Origin: Candidatus Methanoperedens sp.
Lineage (GTDB): Archaea > Halobacteriota > Methanosarcinia > Methanosarcinales > Methanoperedenaceae
Assembly: GCA_027460525.1 (NCBI GenBank)
Contig: JAPZAS010000036.1
Location: 62,001-126,000 of the forward strand
DNA: 64,000 nucleotides
Reading direction: 5' to 3'
Shown here: positions 38,053-47,878 of the stretch, piece after piece
How the letters are laid out: every line of letters begins with the position of its first letter
How positions within the stretch are numbered: position 1 is the first letter of the stretch
Position numbers and translations under genes: made by a program
The notes under the pieces: model-generated
The model's input: only the letters and a program-made list of their open reading frames with translations
What the model was told of the DNA's origin: nothing
The model's database searches: none

Positions 38053-38787
38053 TTACGGAATCATGAACTTCACGCCCGCAATAACAAGCACTACTGCGAG
38101 CAGACAAAACAGGGTTGCATTAGCAAGCCTGCGGCTGCCGAGGCTTGAGCCGATTAAGCCGCCAAATACTGCGGCAAATGACAGCATGTAGATGGCATCT
38201 GGTAAAAATTTCACACTTGCGAGATGTCCGGCGATGCCTGCTATGGAGTTTACAAGAATAAATGCAGCCGAAACCCCGGCGGTTTGCTTTGTTCCAGCCC
38301 AGCCCATCAGCAGAATTAAAGGGCTTAAGAAAATACCTCCGCCCACACCTACTGCTCCAGACAATAATCCAATGCTGGCGCCGAAAAGGACGGCAGCAAG
38401 AACCGGTACTGGTTTTGTTTTATCCGCAATTGCAGATTCCCTGTATCGAAAAAAACGATAGGCAGCGAAGAGGAGGATAAGACCAACGACCTGTTTATAG
38501 AAATAACCCGGAAGAGATATCGCGCCTCCTATAAACGCAAACGGGATGGAACCCGCAGCAAACGGCCAGAAGATATTCCACGAAAAAAAACCTGCACGTA
38601 AGAACTGAACTGCGGCAATCAATGCTACAAGAATGTTCAAAACAAGAGCCGTTGGCTTCATTACATCAGGTGCGAGACCGAACAGCGCCATTGCTGCCAG
38701 ATATCCGGATGCTCCGGCATGTCCTACCGAGGAATAAAGCAGTCCTGCGGCAAAGATCAGGATAGAGAGAAGTATGATGTCGTCCAT
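38053..38787 (-). CDS. TauE/SafE-family permease
   Basis: About eight membrane helices in two inverted halves, each starting with the family glycine/serine pattern (AAGLLYSSVGHAGASGYLA; SIGLLSGAVGVGGGIFLSPL). The family exports or imports sulfur oxyanions and organosulfonates. It follows the amidotransferase gene by 8 nt. Substrate not deducible. Confidence 0.9.
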   Translation of the reverse strand: MDDIILLSILIFAAGLLYSSVGHAGASGYLAAMALFGLAPDVMKPTALVLNILVALIAAVQFLRAGFFSWNIFWPFAAGSIPFAFIGGAISLPGYFYKQVVGLILLFAAYRFFRYRESAIADKTKPVPVLAAVLFGASIGLLSGAVGVGGGIFLSPLILLMGWAGTKQTAGVSAAFILVNSIAGIAGHLASVKFLPDAIYMLSFAAVFGGLIGSSLGSRRLANATLFCLLAVVLVIAGVKFMIP

Positions 38788-38795
38788 GTTGCTTA

Positions 38796-39503
38796 TCAGG
38801 GATAACCAAATTCTTTTTCAATATTATCCAGCAGCAAATACAGCAGTTTACGTATTTCCTGCACATTGCTGATATGCGATACGATTTCATCGGGCTTCTG
38901 TATGTATTTCCCATCCACGATCTCATCGCTGCAGTTCTGGAACATGAGAGCAATGCTTTGCGCCGAATAATCAAGATGGAACTGCAATCCTGTCACTCTT
39001 CCGTTGTTATACTCGAAGGCTTGATTTGCACACCCTTCGCTTTCTGCTATTTTTTTGGCACCTGGCGGCGTATTGAATATATCACCGTGCCAGTGGAAAG
39101 CCATGAATTTCCTGGGAAATGTACTGAAAATCAAGGAACTTCCTGCATCTTTAGTTAATGTCACAGGAAACCATCCGATTTCCCTGTAGTTATTCCTGCT
39201 GACTTTGCCGTCGAGAACATCGGCAATGAGCTGGGCTCCGAGGCATACTCCCAGAACGAGTTTTTTGCGCGCGATTGCATCAGCTATGAATTTTTTCTCC
39301 TGCACAAGCCAGGGATATTTATCTTCTTCGTAGATGTTCATTGAGCCGCCCATGATGATAAGCCAGTCGAAGTCATCGATATCTGGGAGTTCTTCGTTAT
39401 TGAAGAGCAATGTTCTGGATATAGTGTGACCTTTATTATTTGCCCATACTTCGATATTCGCCAGACCTTCAAAGGGTTCATGCTGCAAGGAATGGATTCT
39501 CAT
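38796..39503 (-). CDS. class I glutamine amidotransferase-like protein
   Basis: GATase1 domain with oxyanion-strand GGSMNIYE, nucleophile cysteine in LGVCLGAQ (about residue 87) and histidine in LQFHLD. The usual HxE dyad reads HLD. It resembles the GMP synthase glutaminase half but is a stand-alone protein with a helical tail (235 residues). Its start overlaps the CBS gene end by 26 nt. Confidence 0.88.
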   Translation of the reverse strand: MRIHSLQHEPFEGLANIEVWANNKGHTISRTLLFNNEELPDIDDFDWLIIMGGSMNIYEEDKYPWLVQEKKFIADAIARKKLVLGVCLGAQLIADVLDGKVSRNNYREIGWFPVTLTKDAGSSLIFSTFPRKFMAFHWHGDIFNTPPGAKKIAESEGCANQAFEYNNGRVTGLQFHLDYSAQSIALMFQNCSDEIVDGKYIQKPDEIVSHISNVQEIRKLLYLLLDNIEKEFGYP

Positions 39504-39903
39504 CGTTTTTCTCCAGTGCGATATTATGGTGCTCTATCTTAAACCTGTACGTATGCAGTATATCCTCAGCCCTTATAATTCCCACTTTTTCTCCATTCTC
39601 TACCACCGCTAAATGCGAAACATTATGGCGCCTGAACAGCTCCAGAGCATCAGTAATCCATTTATTGGATTCGATAGTTAGCTCAGGAGAGTGCATGATT
39701 TCATCCACTGAAATATCCCCTTTTCCACTTGAGGCGCTGTAAGCAATATCCACCACAGAAACAATGCCGGCAAGCTTGTTATTTCTGCTCACCAGCACGC
39801 TTCCGATGGTGTTTTTCTTCATTAGCTTCGTTATTTCAATGAGTGTTGTCCCGGTGGGAACCACCACCGGGTTTTTCAGGAGGATGTGGCTTATTTTGGA
39901 CAT
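39478..39903 (-). CDS. two-CBS-domain protein
   Basis: A pair of CBS motifs (NPVVVPTGTTLIEITKLM; HSPELTIESNKWITDALEL) forming an adenosyl-nucleotide sensing Bateman module, 141 residues. GGAG precedes the ATG giving MSKISHIL, so I drop the five-codon extension. First gene of a leftward operon with the amidotransferase and the permease. Confidence 0.92.
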   Translation of the reverse strand: MSKISHILLKNPVVVPTGTTLIEITKLMKKNTIGSVLVSRNNKLAGIVSVVDIAYSASSGKGDISVDEIMHSPELTIESNKWITDALELFRRHNVSHLAVVENGEKVGIIRAEDILHTYRFKIEHHNIALEKNDENPFLAA

Positions 39904-39923
39904 TTGTACTCCTTTCATTCATT

Positions 39924-40010: not shown

Positions 40011-40280
40011 TCACCTTGCTTTTGGTTCGCACAAGATATTCTTCTTCGGGCATCCCCGCGCACATGCACCGCAGCCGATGCAGTTCTCAGGATGCGCCAC
40101 TGTCATGACCTTTGCACCGCACAGGTCATCAGCATTGGGATGATCGATGTACTCGAAAACCCCGCGCCCGCATATCTTGAAGCATTTTCCGCAGCAGCCG
40201 CAGTCGTTGATATTGCTTCTCACAACAAAAGTGGGAGTCCATGTTCCGCCAGAAGCTGTTATTCCTGTTACGTATTCCAT
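40011..40280 (-). CDS. nif-associated 2[4Fe-4S]-type ferredoxin
   Basis: 89 residues with two cysteine clusters, DCGCCGKCFKIC and NCIGCGACARGCPKKN, resembling the nif-specific ferredoxin III group. It begins 9 nt after nifK and is last in the nif operon, so it is a likely electron donor to NifH. A glycine-rich N-terminal segment (ASGGTWTP) is typical of this group. Confidence 0.88.
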   Translation of the reverse strand: MEYVTGITASGGTWTPTFVVRSNINDCGCCGKCFKICGRGVFEYIDHPNADDLCGAKVMTVAHPENCIGCGACARGCPKKNILCEPKAR

Positions 40281-40289
40281 ATTTTCACC

Positions 40290-41606
40290 TCACTGATGCA
40301 GTTTGTTGGGGTCGTACTTGTGCCCCAGTATGGCGTTCGTCATCTGGTCAAGCAGGTAGATTGAGCCGTTGTAGCCCATGATGGAATAGCGATACACGCC
40401 CACGCGGTCGTACACGGGGAACCCGAAGCGCACTAAAGGAACGCCCTCATCATCCGCTATGTCCTTTCCCTTGGAGTTGCCAAGTATCAGCTCAGCGCCG
40501 TGGGTTTTTACAACCTCGTGGAATTCATACAGGTCAGTGCCTTCAAGAATCTGCGTATCGGCCTTATATTCGCCGTTCACCGCTTTGATGTCCGGGGCAA
40601 AGTCCTTATGCTTCGTTGCGGTCATCGCTACTGTGGGGTTCATCCCGGCTTCTGCGCAGAACCTAACGATAGCAGACACAAGATCAGGATCGCCGAATAT
40701 CGCAACCTTTCTGCCAAACATGTAGTGATGCACGTCCACCATGCTGTCTATCAGGCGCCCGCGTTCGATCACAATTTCATTCGGGATTGGCGCTTTACTC
40801 AAACGGCTTATATTCTGCACGAACCTGTCCGTGTTTGCAACGCCGATTGGCGCAGGGTCAAGCACTGCGGGGACGTTGAACTTGTTTTTAAGATATACGG
40901 CAGCAGAGCCTGCTGTCCTGCATATCGCTATGGTACCAAGCGAGTTCGCCGAGTCTGCGATGTCGGCAATCTTTGTTCCGCCATCAGGGAGCATTGGTTT
41001 ATGTCCGCCTGGCAATATGGGAGTATCAAGGGTTTCGGAGATATCTGACAGGAAGATGCTTTGCACATTCATTAAGCGCAGCATGTTCTTTAACTCCCTG
41101 ATATCGCCGGGATTGATTATGCCCGTGATAATGTTTACCTTATTGTTAGGTTCACCCTTTACTGCCAGTGTTTCCACAAGCGTCCTGAGGGCATTGTCAT
41201 ATCCTGTGAGATGCGTGCCAACATAGCTTGGCGTGGACGCGGGGAATATCTTCATCGTATCATCAGCCAGCGCCTTCTTTGCGATCAATTTCACATCATC
41301 GCCTATCGTCTCGCTCATGCACGTGGTACAGATACCAATGGCAACCGGGTTCAGCCTGGACTTGATGTTCTTTATGGCTTCTGTCAGGTTCTTGGCTCCA
41401 CCATAAACAGCGGCATCTTCAGCCAACGAGGAGACAGCAACCTCAGCAGATTCCCTGAAATGCCGGGCGATATTGTAGCGTGGGTAGGTGCTGCATCCCT
41501 GAGAGCCGTGCACCAGCGGGACGCAGCCGTGCACTCCCATGTAGGCGAGTATTGCACCCATGGGCTGACACATCTTGGGAGGATTGATAGTAACGCTTCG
41601 TGCCAT
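40290..41606 (-). CDS. nifK: nitrogenase beta subunit
   Basis: 438 residues, short for NifK (about 520 in Azotobacter) because the N-terminal extension is missing. P-cluster cysteines C13, C38 and C96 keep the exact 25- and 58-residue spacing of Azotobacter C70, C95 and C153. Nearby motifs PLVHGSQGC and SSLAEDAAVYGG are typical. ATG follows the nifD TAA without a gap; GGAGGTG in the nifD end is its Shine-Dalgarno. No delta-subunit gene intervenes. Confidence 0.95.
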   Translation of the reverse strand: MARSVTINPPKMCQPMGAILAYMGVHGCVPLVHGSQGCSTYPRYNIARHFRESAEVAVSSLAEDAAVYGGAKNLTEAIKNIKSRLNPVAIGICTTCMSETIGDDVKLIAKKALADDTMKIFPASTPSYVGTHLTGYDNALRTLVETLAVKGEPNNKVNIITGIINPGDIRELKNMLRLMNVQSIFLSDISETLDTPILPGGHKPMLPDGGTKIADIADSANSLGTIAICRTAGSAAVYLKNKFNVPAVLDPAPIGVANTDRFVQNISRLSKAPIPNEIVIERGRLIDSMVDVHHYMFGRKVAIFGDPDLVSAIVRFCAEAGMNPTVAMTATKHKDFAPDIKAVNGEYKADTQILEGTDLYEFHEVVKTHGAELILGNSKGKDIADDEGVPLVRFGFPVYDRVGVYRYSIMGYNGSIYLLDQMTNAILGHKYDPNKLHQ

Positions 41607-42977
41607 TTAGCTCACCTCCAGGGGCTTGTTTATGAACTTCCATACAGGGCTGTTGACCGCAACGTCGATGTCCCTTGCAAAGTTCACGAATCCCTCAAAT
41701 CCCGCATACGGTCCTTCTTCGTAGGAATGACCGTTGATAAAGGGTATGCCGAGCTTGTATGTCAGGTATTTCTCCTTCAAGCCCCCGATAAAGAAATCGG
41801 GCCTGAGCTTGACCAGGTATTCCTCGATCTCAAGGGCATTCGGGTTATCAATGCAGATATGTCCTGGCTTTGCCTTTGACATGATCTTCTCGTAATCGTC
41901 CTTGTGCCCGAAGGTAGTTGCTGTAAGGATGGTCTCGATGCCCAGTTCCCTCATCGGCTCAATCCAGTGCCATGCACGAGGCGCACCCTGGTATATGAAG
42001 CACTTCTTGCCTTCAAGCCTCTTTCTGTAATAATCGATATTCTTCTGATATTTTGCAAGCTCCTCTGCTATCACCTTATCCGCGTTTTCTTCAAGGTGGA
42101 AGAATTTCCCGACATCGCGAAGGGCTTCTGCCGTTTGCTTCATGCCGAACAGGGATACGTTGATGTATGGAATGTTGTACTTGTCCTGTATCATTTTGGC
42201 GATATAGGTGGACGACCTTTGGCACTGCACTATATTCAATTTCGCACGATGCATTGGCGGCAGATCAGCATACGAGGCATTCCCTGTAAACACGGAAAGG
42301 ACTCTAACACCCATTCTTTCAAACAGCGGCTTGACTATCCAGGCATCGCCGTCGATGTTGAATTCCCCGATTATGCACATGTCGTAAGGCGTGGTGGTCT
42401 CGGGCTCCTTTGTTCCAACCACTTTCTCAAACAGCGTTCGGTTGGCGATGTGGTGTCCAAGGGACTGGCTCACGCCCCTGAAGCCCTCGCAATGGAAAGG
42501 CACAACGGGTATTCCGATCTTTTCCTGGGCCTGCTTGCATATAGCTTCGGTATCGTCGCCTATGAGTCCGACCACGCATGTGGAATACACAAAAACTGCC
42601 TTGGCTTCGGGAAACAGTTCATGCGCCTCTATAATGGATTTTAATAGCTTTTTTGCACCTCCGTATATCACGCTTTCTTCGGTCAGGTCTGTACTGAAGC
42701 AGTACTTCCTGTGCAGCTTTACATCTGAAAGGTTCCTGCGCGTGCCCCACGTATAATAAGCGCATCCTATCGGACCGTGCACCAGCTGAATTACATCCTT
42801 CACGGGACCTCCCACTACGCCCCTGCACCCCGCAAACGTGCAGCCGCGCTCGGTCATGTCACCCGGCACTGTCTGGATATTGCACATGGGCAATATGATG
42901 TTCCCGGGCTCATGGCAAACAATATGCGGTCGGCGCTGTGGTATGGGGATGTCGCATTCAGGTAAAATTGTTGTCAT
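41607..42977 (-). CDS. nifD: nitrogenase alpha subunit, mosaic NifD/VnfD-like
   Basis: 456 residues. P-cluster ligands C46, C72, C134. Cofactor ligands C252 (NIVQCQRS) and H417 (INGHSYEEGPY). FeMo-co surroundings Q171 and H175 (SQSLGHHIAN), R334 and K401 (GLKEKY). So the active-site set of an authentic nitrogenase is complete. Some stretches (TGNASYADLPPMHRAKLN, GAPRAWHW, FEGFVNFARD) look more like VnfD/AnfD than NifD. Pairs with nifK to form the catalytic component. Confidence 0.93.
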   Translation of the reverse strand: MTTILPECDIPIPQRRPHIVCHEPGNIILPMCNIQTVPGDMTERGCTFAGCRGVVGGPVKDVIQLVHGPIGCAYYTWGTRRNLSDVKLHRKYCFSTDLTEESVIYGGAKKLLKSIIEAHELFPEAKAVFVYSTCVVGLIGDDTEAICKQAQEKIGIPVVPFHCEGFRGVSQSLGHHIANRTLFEKVVGTKEPETTTPYDMCIIGEFNIDGDAWIVKPLFERMGVRVLSVFTGNASYADLPPMHRAKLNIVQCQRSSTYIAKMIQDKYNIPYINVSLFGMKQTAEALRDVGKFFHLEENADKVIAEELAKYQKNIDYYRKRLEGKKCFIYQGAPRAWHWIEPMRELGIETILTATTFGHKDDYEKIMSKAKPGHICIDNPNALEIEEYLVKLRPDFFIGGLKEKYLTYKLGIPFINGHSYEEGPYAGFEGFVNFARDIDVAVNSPVWKFINKPLEVS

Positions 42978-43063: not shown

Positions 43064-43420
43064 TCACTTCAAAGCCTGTTCTCCTATCTCTCCTGTTCTC
43101 ACTCTTACAGCGTCCTCGACAGGGCATACGAAGATCTTTCCGTCTCCAATCTGCCCGGTCTGGTTTGTCCTTATTAATGTCTCAACGACTTTTGGGACAT
43201 CGCTGTCCTCGACCACTGTATATATCATCCTCTTAGGAATGAACTGGAGTTTAGTTTCCATTTTTGCCTCGTTCATCTCATCATCAGGTTCGATCAAACC
43301 GCGCTGTTTTCCCCTGCCCTCAACGCTTATCATCGTAAGGGCAGGAACACCAATACCCAGAAGACCTGCCTTGGTTTCCTGTATTTTATGTCTTCGTATT
43401 ATGGCGATAACTTCCTTCAT
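43064..43420 (-). CDS. nifI2: PII-like nitrogenase regulator NifI2
   Basis: 118-residue PII-family protein (VEGRGKQRG T-loop entry, then IGDGKIFVCPVEDAVRVRTGE). In methanogens NifI1 and NifI2 form a complex that binds the nitrogenase and blocks it when ammonium is present, relieved by 2-oxoglutarate. Order nifH-nifI1-nifI2-nifD is the conserved archaeal arrangement. Confidence 0.94.
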   Translation of the reverse strand: MKEVIAIIRRHKIQETKAGLLGIGVPALTMISVEGRGKQRGLIEPDDEMNEAKMETKLQFIPKRMIYTVVEDSDVPKVVETLIRTNQTGQIGDGKIFVCPVEDAVRVRTGEIGEQALK

Positions 43421-43428
43421 GATCTCAC

Positions 43429-43746
43429 CTATAATCCTGATTCTCCAGTCCTCACAGTGTAAGCCTCTGAAACATCGGTCACGAAGATCTTGCCGTCGCC
43501 GATATTCCCGGTGCGAGCGCTGTTCTGGATAACGTTCACAGCCTTTGGGACGTCCTCGTCATTCACAACAAGCATCAGCATCACCTTGGGCAGTTCATCG
43601 TAACATACCGTCCCTACCCTGATTCCCTTCTGTTTGCCACGCCCGAAAACATTCATCTTTGTGAGGGAATAAAACCCCTCTTTTTCCAGGTGCTCCACGA
43701 CTTTTTCTTCCTTGTTTGGTCTGATTATTGCACGTATCATCTTCAT
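43429..43746 (-). CDS. nifI1: PII-like nitrogenase regulator NifI1
   Basis: 105 residues from the ATG giving MKMIRAIIRP, preceded by GGAGAGGTG; an upstream in-frame ATG has no ribosome site. PII fold with GRGKQKGIRVG at the T-loop and IGDGKIFVTDVSEAYTVRTGE. Partner of NifI2 in 2-oxoglutarate-controlled switch-off of nitrogenase. Starts 4 nt after nifH ends. Confidence 0.94.
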   Translation of the reverse strand: MKMIRAIIRPNKEEKVVEHLEKEGFYSLTKMNVFGRGKQKGIRVGTVCYDELPKVMLMLVVNDEDVPKAVNVIQNSARTGNIGDGKIFVTDVSEAYTVRTGESGL

Positions 43747-43750
43747 GTTC

Positions 43751-44635
<885 letters not shown>

Positions 44636-44728: not shown

Positions 44729-46395
<1,667 letters not shown>

Positions 46396-46432: not shown

Positions 46433-47878
46433 ATGACGACAACACCTCAAAAGCTTCTGGAATTCATAAAAGAAAAGACAGTAAAATGGGTAGACCTCCA
46501 GTTCATGGACATCCCGGGCTACATACAGCACATCACGATCCCTTCATACACATTGAAAGAAGAGGATTTCACAGACGGCATAGGAAAGCTGGACGGCTCT
46601 TCCATCAAGGGCTTTAAGGCCATCTTCGAGTCTGATATGAGGATGTTCCCAGACCCGAGTACCTGCGGCATCCTCCCATGGACCGACAACACGCCGCACA
46701 GGACGATACGCCTGATATGCGACCTCTACGATGCCTTCGGAGGACCGCGATTCTCACGCGACCCCAGGCACATAGCACAGAGGGCAGAGCAGGCTGTAAA
46801 CAAAGCGGGTTTTGACCTCTCATACTGGGGACCTGAGCTTGAGTTCTTCGTGTTCGACTCGTTCAGGATGTATCCAAGCTTCTCCACGGCACGCGATGCC
46901 TGGTCTGGCACAGGATATGAAATCGAATCAAAAGAAGCCCCCTGGTCGCAAGCGAGCGGCATAAACCACCCGATCCGGTTCAAGGAAGGCTACTATCCTG
47001 CACCCCCACAGGACACTCTGCAGGAATACCGCAGCGAGGTAACAGGGCAGCTCTACGACTACTTCGGCATAATCTGCGATGCGCACCACCACGAGGTAGC
47101 GACCGCAGGACAGTGCGAGATCGACATGAAGTACGACACGCTCACGAAGATGGCTGATAACGTGCTCACGTACAAGAACGTGGTCAAGAACGTGGCATAC
47201 AATATGAAAATGGTCGCCACCTTCATGCCCAAGCCGATATTCGGAGACAATGCCTCTGGCATGCACATCCACCAGTCGCTCTGGAAGAAAGGGAGGAACA
47301 CCTTCTATGACCCTGACGACGAATACGCTGAAATATCGCAGACCTGCCGCTACTACATCGGCGGACTGATGGAGCATTCAAGGGCACTGTGCGCCATCAC
47401 CTCACCCACCACAAACTCGTACAAGAGGCTTGTTCCTGGCTACGAGGCTCCTGTCTATATCGCATGGAGCAAGCGCAACCGCTCGGCAAGCATAAGGGTA
47501 CCTGTGTACGAGAAGGGCAAAGAGGCTCCGAAGAGGATCGAGTTCAGACCGCCTGATACGAGCTGCAATACCTACTATGCGTTTGCAGCACTCACTGCAG
47601 CAGGGCTTGACGGCATCAAGAGAAAGACCGACCCCGGGGACCCGTGCGACGAGAACATCTACCACCTCACGCCTGAGCGGAGGAAGCAGATGGGAATCAA
47701 GGAGTGCCCGGGCTCGCTGCTTGAGGCACTTGGTGAGCTTGAGTCGGACAGGAAATTCCTTGAGCCGATCTTCCCGGGTGATGCCATCGATATGTGGATA
47801 GAGCTCAAATCCGAGGAATACAAGCAGAACTCGATAAGACCAACGCCGTACGAGTTCTACCAGTACTTCGATATATAA
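46433..47878 (+). CDS. glnA: glutamine synthetase type I
   Basis: Makes glutamine from glutamate, ammonium and ATP. 481 residues, 12-mer type. Active-site motifs: DGSSIKGF, GPELEFFVFD, AGQCEIDMKYD, NASGMHIHQSLW, SPTTNSYKRLVPGYEAP and RIEFRPPDTS. NIYHL occupies the adenylylation-loop position and keeps the tyrosine, although no adenylyltransferase is nearby. GGAGA precedes the ATG. Third gene of the nitrogen operon. Confidence 0.96.
   Translation: MTTTPQKLLEFIKEKTVKWVDLQFMDIPGYIQHITIPSYTLKEEDFTDGIGKLDGSSIKGFKAIFESDMRMFPDPSTCGILPWTDNTPHRTIRLICDLYDAFGGPRFSRDPRHIAQRAEQAVNKAGFDLSYWGPELEFFVFDSFRMYPSFSTARDAWSGTGYEIESKEAPWSQASGINHPIRFKEGYYPAPPQDTLQEYRSEVTGQLYDYFGIICDAHHHEVATAGQCEIDMKYDTLTKMADNVLTYKNVVKNVAYNMKMVATFMPKPIFGDNASGMHIHQSLWKKGRNTFYDPDDEYAEISQTCRYYIGGLMEHSRALCAITSPTTNSYKRLVPGYEAPVYIAWSKRNRSASIRVPVYEKGKEAPKRIEFRPPDTSCNTYYAFAALTAAGLDGIKRKTDPGDPCDENIYHLTPERRKQMGIKECPGSLLEALGELESDRKFLEPIFPGDAIDMWIELKSEEYKQNSIRPTPYEFYQYFDI

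Follow-up and report, generated by a model that had tools for sequence, protein, structure and literature searches.

A 64,000-nucleotide stretch of Candidatus Methanoperedens sp. DNA (GCA_027460525.1, JAPZAS010000036.1, positions 62,001 to 126,000; the window hereafter) encodes what is probably a functional Mo-type nitrogenase, NifHDK with the regulators NifI1 and NifI2, belonging to a NifEN-less lineage on the Methanoperedens chromosome and expected to mature FeMo-co on apo-NifDK itself. The absence of NifE and NifN is the main feature of the system, and was invisible to the initial annotation, which was drawn from the window alone. The lineage itself is already known, as the enzyme groups with the ANME "methane seep group" and with Chloroflexi enzymes in the best trees; new here are a genus-wide census, the split between Methanoperedens and the remaining ANME nitrogenases, a marker residue in the cofactor pocket, a second nif type in the genus, and a hint of NifEN polyphyly.

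The nif Locus and Its Neighbors

The cluster runs along the minus strand from nifH (43751..44575), which encodes a 274-residue Fe protein (TIGR01287, 453 bits; cut-off 394) and whose start we set from sequence at the ATG at 44573-44575, behind a ribosome-binding site, rather than at the GTG at 44608. Two PII-type regulators follow, nifI1 (43429..43746; PF00543, 97.5 bits), the position of which is conserved among relatives, and nifI2 (43064..43420; PF00543, 90 bits), and then nifD (41607..42977) for the catalytic alpha subunit and nifK (40290..41606) for the beta subunit. Behind nifK on the same strand lies a tail of four genes: fdx (40011..40280), whose product is a 2[4Fe-4S]-type ferredoxin resembling nif-specific ferredoxin III (TIGR02936, 64 bits, below the cut-off of 80.6) and is proposed as a candidate electron donor; a CBS-domain protein (39478..39918; PF00571); a class-I glutamine-amidotransferase (GATase)-like protein (38796..39503; PF00117); and, last, a TauE-type membrane transporter (38053..38787), named from sequence and conserved across Methanoperedens loci. 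Most Methanoperedens loci that are long enough carry this tail. A ferredoxin directly after nifK was seen in Methanoperedens only, and the tail is missing from ANME-2, Chloroflexi and the other loci compared.

Divergent from nifH, on the plus strand, are an amtB-type ammonium transporter (44729..46036, named from sequence), a glnK-type PII protein (46047..46385; 94 bits by similarity to NifI1) and a glutamine-synthetase-like (glnA-like) protein (46433..47878, also named from sequence). An NrpR-type operator (GGWA-N6-TWCC) was considered and dropped, with five matches in the window against 3.1 by chance and none in the nifH-amtB gap.

The closest NifD relatives (91-96% identity) all belong to Candidatus Methanoperedens or to archaeal bins that group with it, which identifies the window as a Methanoperedens (ANME-2d) segment; we take it as chromosomal because housekeeping genes share it. 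Borg extrachromosomal elements of Methanoperedens carry nif clusters too (PMC11208441), which is a possible route of spread.

Subunits, Motifs and the Cofactor Pocket

NifD (456 aa) scores 591 bits against TIGR01862, "nitrogenase component I subunit alpha" (cut-off 486), and PF00148 matches NifD at 359 bits and NifK (438 aa) at 427.5 bits, bearing out the view that these are genuine nitrogenase subunits. Every ligand and key residue that the initial annotation had listed for NifD is in place (C46, C72, C134, Q171, H175, C252, R334, K401 and H417), and NifK keeps the exact 25- and 58-residue cysteine spacing (C13, C38, C96). Both subunits are indeed short, as is usual for the lineage, and nifD and nifK have no delta-subunit gene between them; PF03139 has no match in the whole genome.

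The same annotation had also read NifD as a mosaic of NifD- and VnfD-like motifs, and here only part of the claim survives: the similarity of the strings is real, but it does not reflect mixed ancestry. In our alignment GxPRxWHW, FTGNxS and a GFVNFARD-type C-terminus are present in all or most relatives on the same side of the tree, and the VnfD/AnfD-like motifs recur, whole or nearly so, in NifD of ANME-2, Roseiflexus, Archaeoglobi and Moorella. GxPRxWH has been listed for "uncharacterised" nitrogenases (PMC3578447). Because these motifs are common to a whole lineage that includes Roseiflexus, a proven Mo-nitrogenase, they do not make a mosaic.

A more specific signature emerges when 33 NifEN-less NifDs are compared with 27 others, the groups being set by gene content and not by the columns in question. 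At NifD position 330, equivalent to alpha-Ile355 of A. vinelandii, 31 of the 33 have Gln (as does the window's protein, Gln330) and two have Glu, and neither residue occurs in the other 27. At position 416, beside the His ligand, all 32 NifEN-less proteins with a residue there have Gly, which otherwise occurs only in the two VnfD compared. Since members of the NifEN-less group are related, Gln/Glu at alpha-355 is a marker, not proof of function. Alpha-355 is the first residue of the IGGLRP loop, which is well established to contact the cofactor in nitrogenase structures; G356, G357 and R359 of the same loop are discussed elsewhere (PMC11573651). Separately, residue 206 is Phe at the nearly universal alpha-Tyr229 position, a substitution seen in seven of the 33 NifEN-less NifDs (six Methanoperedens rows and SZUA-191) and in A. 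vinelandii VnfD. The structure predicted by AlphaFold (mean pLDDT 76, with low values at residues 32-56 and 70-89) is good enough to confirm the fold but not to judge pocket geometry.

Proposed Cofactor Assembly without a Scaffold

The genome is a draft of 2.44 Mb in 37 contigs, 99.5% complete. Only three of its proteins match PF00148. Two are NifD and NifK; the third, encoded on contig 16, is the CfbD of F430 synthesis (542 bits; cut-off 268), with a NifH-like CfbC candidate adjoining. NifE and NifN are absent on this basis; that they were missed owing to the draft state of the genome is unlikely but possible. The genome search likewise found no NifX/NafY-type protein. What is present is a NifB on contig 6, a short form scoring 289 bits against TIGR01290 (the cut-off of 343.65 fits the longer form) with its HPC motif, radical-SAM CxxxCxxC and C-terminal Cys motif intact, together with four proteins of the isopropylmalate/citramalate/homocitrate synthase family. 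One of these (at L140) has good scores on both homocitrate models, though below the cut-offs, and is likely an AksA-type homocitrate source.

From these parts a route to the cofactor can be proposed. NifB would make NifB-co ([Fe8S9C]), which, without NifEN, would be loaded straight into P-cluster-containing apo-NifDK and converted there to FeMo-co by NifH, molybdate and homocitrate, the last supplied by an AksA/NifV-type synthase also required for coenzyme B synthesis. N2 reduction would then be driven by NifH, with the co-encoded ferredoxin as its probable electron source, and NifI1/I2 would switch the enzyme off when ammonium is available. The precedent is Roseiflexus, in which NifB and NifH suffice for FeMo-co to be matured on NifDK, without NifEN (PMC11573651, 2024), and we infer on-enzyme maturation in Methanoperedens from gene content, residues and kinship with Roseiflexus. 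The literature searched gave no report that Methanoperedens itself fixes N2.

Phylogenetic Placement

A NifDK tree (55 rows, 942 columns) has two sides, one made up of Nif I/II (100/100). Opposite them are Vnf/Anf, joined by the Mb-Mc-like and F-Mc sequences (98/97), and the NifEN-less group (80/61), and this weak support for the latter as one clade counts against the reading proposed here. Three groupings within the NifEN-less sequences are well supported: Methanoperedens with Schekmanbacteria, ANME-2/Argoarchaeum with UBA8915/UBA186, and Bathyarchaeota with Hydrothermarchaeota/Chloroflexi. The best trees place Methanoperedens with ANME and Chloroflexi, but with support of no more than 77/82 and 80/61. 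In AU tests, a clade of Methanoperedens and Schekmanbacteria with Vnf/Anf is rejected (p = 0.0078), as is a union of Methanoperedens with ANME-2/Argoarchaeum that leaves out Schekmanbacteria (p = 0.0072 for NifD, 1e-5 for NifDK). On these sequences, the Methanoperedens nitrogenase branch is sister to Schekmanbacteria and not to other ANME. ANME NifD has been reported as monophyletic (PMC9012536); the placement of Schekmanbacteria qualifies that report, the tree of which may have omitted ANME-2d or Schekmanbacteria.

Rooted with Nif I/II NifEN as outgroup, Methanoperedens plus Schekmanbacteria form the first branch on their own side (85/87), which weakly supports the earlier description of the lineage as early-branching. 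None of the rooting claims draws on a further quick tree with distant PF00148 proteins as its root, in which long branches came together. The placement outside standard Nif also holds, and the sequences fall neither inside Nif I/II nor with NflD/CfbD. In profile scores, the standard nifD equivalog (TIGR01282) reaches 515 bits against a cut-off of 653.6, the VnfD and AnfD equivalogs 484 against 823 and 421 against 874, and the CfbD/NflD model (TIGR03282) 38 against 268, the genome having its separate CfbC/CfbD pair on contig 16. The label "uncharacterised" needs qualifying, as the ANME methane seep group and its lack of nifEN were described in 2022 (PMC9012536) and a relative from Roseiflexus was shown in 2024 to be a Mo-nitrogenase that matures without NifEN (PMC11573651).

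Relation to Known Systems

The methane seep group (Chadwick et al. 2022, PMC9012536) shares with the Methanoperedens locus the nifHI1I2DK order, the lack of nifE and nifN, intact ligands, and nearest outside kin that include Roseiflexus; NifD of ANME-2 and Argoarchaeum is about 61-63% identical to that of the window. Methanoperedens differs in forming its own branch with Schekmanbacteria and in adding the ferredoxin-CBS-GATase-TauE tail. Roseiflexus sp. RS-1 (Clfx clade; Paya-Tormo et al. 2024, PMC11573651) has in common with Methanoperedens NifB without NifEN, the Mo-type markers and pocket residues including Gln at alpha-355, with NifD 57-58% identical to the window's. Its loci, however, place nifB between nifH and nifD and lack NifI1/I2, whereas in Methanoperedens nifB lies elsewhere in the genome; and the biochemistry comes from Roseiflexus only. 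The best sequence match in the PDB is 9spz/9sq3 (Mb-Mc-like, grouping with Archaeoglobi; NifD 568 bits, 55% identity), for which (9spz) our literature search found no paper. It shares the PRxWHW loop but has Val at alpha-355 where Methanoperedens has Gln, and its Archaeoglobi relatives possess nifE and nifN.

Metal Type and Rival Explanations

The initial annotation's assignment to the Mo type stands, in that all applicable published residue tests for Mo versus V/Fe (PMC3578447, PMC11573651) are passed: NifD has A65, G69, R96, CQRS, T380, K426, E427 and K428, the rule for the last position allowing either K or R. The CxRS rule is not absolute, as CARS, the V/Fe form, occurs in five of the 33 NifEN-less NifDs. 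A genome search for ModA was negative and the only oxyanion-binding (PF13531) protein is TupA-like, so transport cannot argue metal identity, and Mo remains the inferred metal.

An alternative V- or Fe-only (Vnf/Anf) enzyme, or a promiscuous one, has some features to recommend it: NifD passes the subfamily-level model for alternative nitrogenase alpha subunits (TIGR01284, 553 against 512.8 bits), NifK scores best on vnfK (394 bits, yet far below that cut-off), the closest fold match is VnfD, and the Pro358 loop (Vnf), the GFVN/FARD-type C-terminus and the FTGN motif all recall VnfDK/AnfDK. We nevertheless consider it highly improbable. Those enzymes need a delta subunit, which the genome lacks, and have C65, L/H69, K96, K380, R426 and G428, none of which is found here; the joint clade is rejected, as described above; and the Pro358 loop is no sign of V, being present in Roseiflexus, whose enzyme depends on Mo and shows no activation by V (PMC11573651). 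Somewhat less remote, though still unlikely, is that a scaffold too divergent for PF00148 fills the NifEN role, or that NifEN resides on a Borg or other unassembled element. Nif genes on Borgs (PMC11208441) and an assembly in 37 contigs leave room for this, but 20 genomes of the genus hold exactly D, K and CfbD, the absence is repeated in other phyla, and Roseiflexus offers biochemical precedent without any scaffold.

Nitrate is often available to Methanoperedens as a nitrogen source, and this, with Phe replacing the usual alpha-Tyr229, might favor a decayed or repurposed nitrogenase-like reductase over a working nitrogenase. That view has very little probability in our estimation, given that the ligands are all intact and that the nif genes are open and 89-96% identical across the genus, accompanied by NifI1/I2 and usually by an adjoining amtB-glnK; the proteins are also far from the methylthio-alkane reductase and CfbD models. 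ANME-2 with related genes assimilated 15N2, according to Dekas 2009 as cited in PMC9012536.

Distribution in the Genus and Beyond

Window-type NifD occurs in 25 of 31 Methanoperedens genomes, the window's own included, and in 20 of these 25 the count of PF00148 proteins is exactly three. The remaining five showed no NifE/NifN pair either; their counts depart from three through genes broken by contig ends (G001, G028), a pair resembling methylthio-alkane reductase (G008, G010) or a fourth match (G025). Beyond the genus, PF00148 matches two proteins in each of the Schekmanbacteria, Bathyarchaeota, Hydrothermarchaeota and Euryarchaeota SZUA-158 genomes; those of Chloroflexi encode four to six additional ones, taken to be the chlorophyll-synthesis homologues of phototrophs.

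Other nif-like loci were encountered along the way. One G008 cluster (L121:2458-7202, G008:C1) combines nifH-like, nifD/K-like and nifB-like genes, with similar genes in G010:C206; its alpha subunit is closest to PDB 9d9u/9fmg, which we regard as methylthio-alkane reductase, a surprising find in a methane oxidizer. One Methanoperedens genome (L119, L120; G020:C57:74500-101000) has eight clustered PF00148 matches plus nifB- and nifH-like genes, without window-type NifDK. In one ANME-2 genome, broken nifK-like fragments with stop codons (L066:14160-14900; G108:C114:142060-142768), perhaps the remains of a duplication, lie near an intact nif operon. In a Schekmanbacteria MAG and a bacterium MAG (L056, L057), where nifB sits between nifI2 and nifD, NifD shares 70-71% identity with that of the window; the similarity may reflect either archaeon-bacterium transfer or misbinned contigs.

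Methanosarcina-type nifHI1I2DKEN, not the window type, was seen at L116 (G004:C24, same genus) and L118 (G031:C176, same family). Two nif types thus alternate within Methanoperedens, at least one member having the Methanosarcina type. NifE/NifN beside NifK has been reported in ANME-2a (PMC12622379); as some members of the order, family and genus (G046, G031, G004) carry Methanosarcina-type nifHDKEN, that report and the NifEN-less reports may both be right.

Origin of NifEN and Significance

Archaeoglobaceae possess nifB-nifE-nifN (L106:8473-12029; nifE and nifN of G123 at L145). Their NifE and NifN fall among NifEN-less NifD and NifK, not among other NifE and NifN (98/98 in the concatenated tree), and the pair lacks the His442 ligand, with Arg instead. 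A single clade is rejected for all NifE (p = 0.024) and for concatenated NifEN (p = 0.016), but not for all NifN (p = 0.19). Covering two Archaeoglobaceae pairs and one model, this result suggests that the NifEN scaffold may have arisen more than once. A broader conjecture, which we offer tentatively and think rather doubtful as a whole, is that self-maturing NifDK, far from being peculiar to Chloroflexi, constitutes a broad archaeal and bacterial lineage with Methanoperedens and Schekmanbacteria among its deepest members, that its alpha-355 Gln/Glu signature may aid maturation, and that Archaeoglobaceae NifEN was recruited from it independently.

A NifEN-less nitrogenase departs from the minimum of six genes given in textbooks. 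It touches on the question of which came first, scaffold or enzyme, and is attractive for transferring N2 fixation to new hosts with a smaller set of genes. Bioreactor enrichments of Methanoperedens are maintained (PMC9012536), so its version could be tested as a mesophilic counterpart to the enzyme of thermophilic Roseiflexus. For the organism itself, such an enzyme would connect N2 fixation with nitrate- and metal-dependent methane oxidation.
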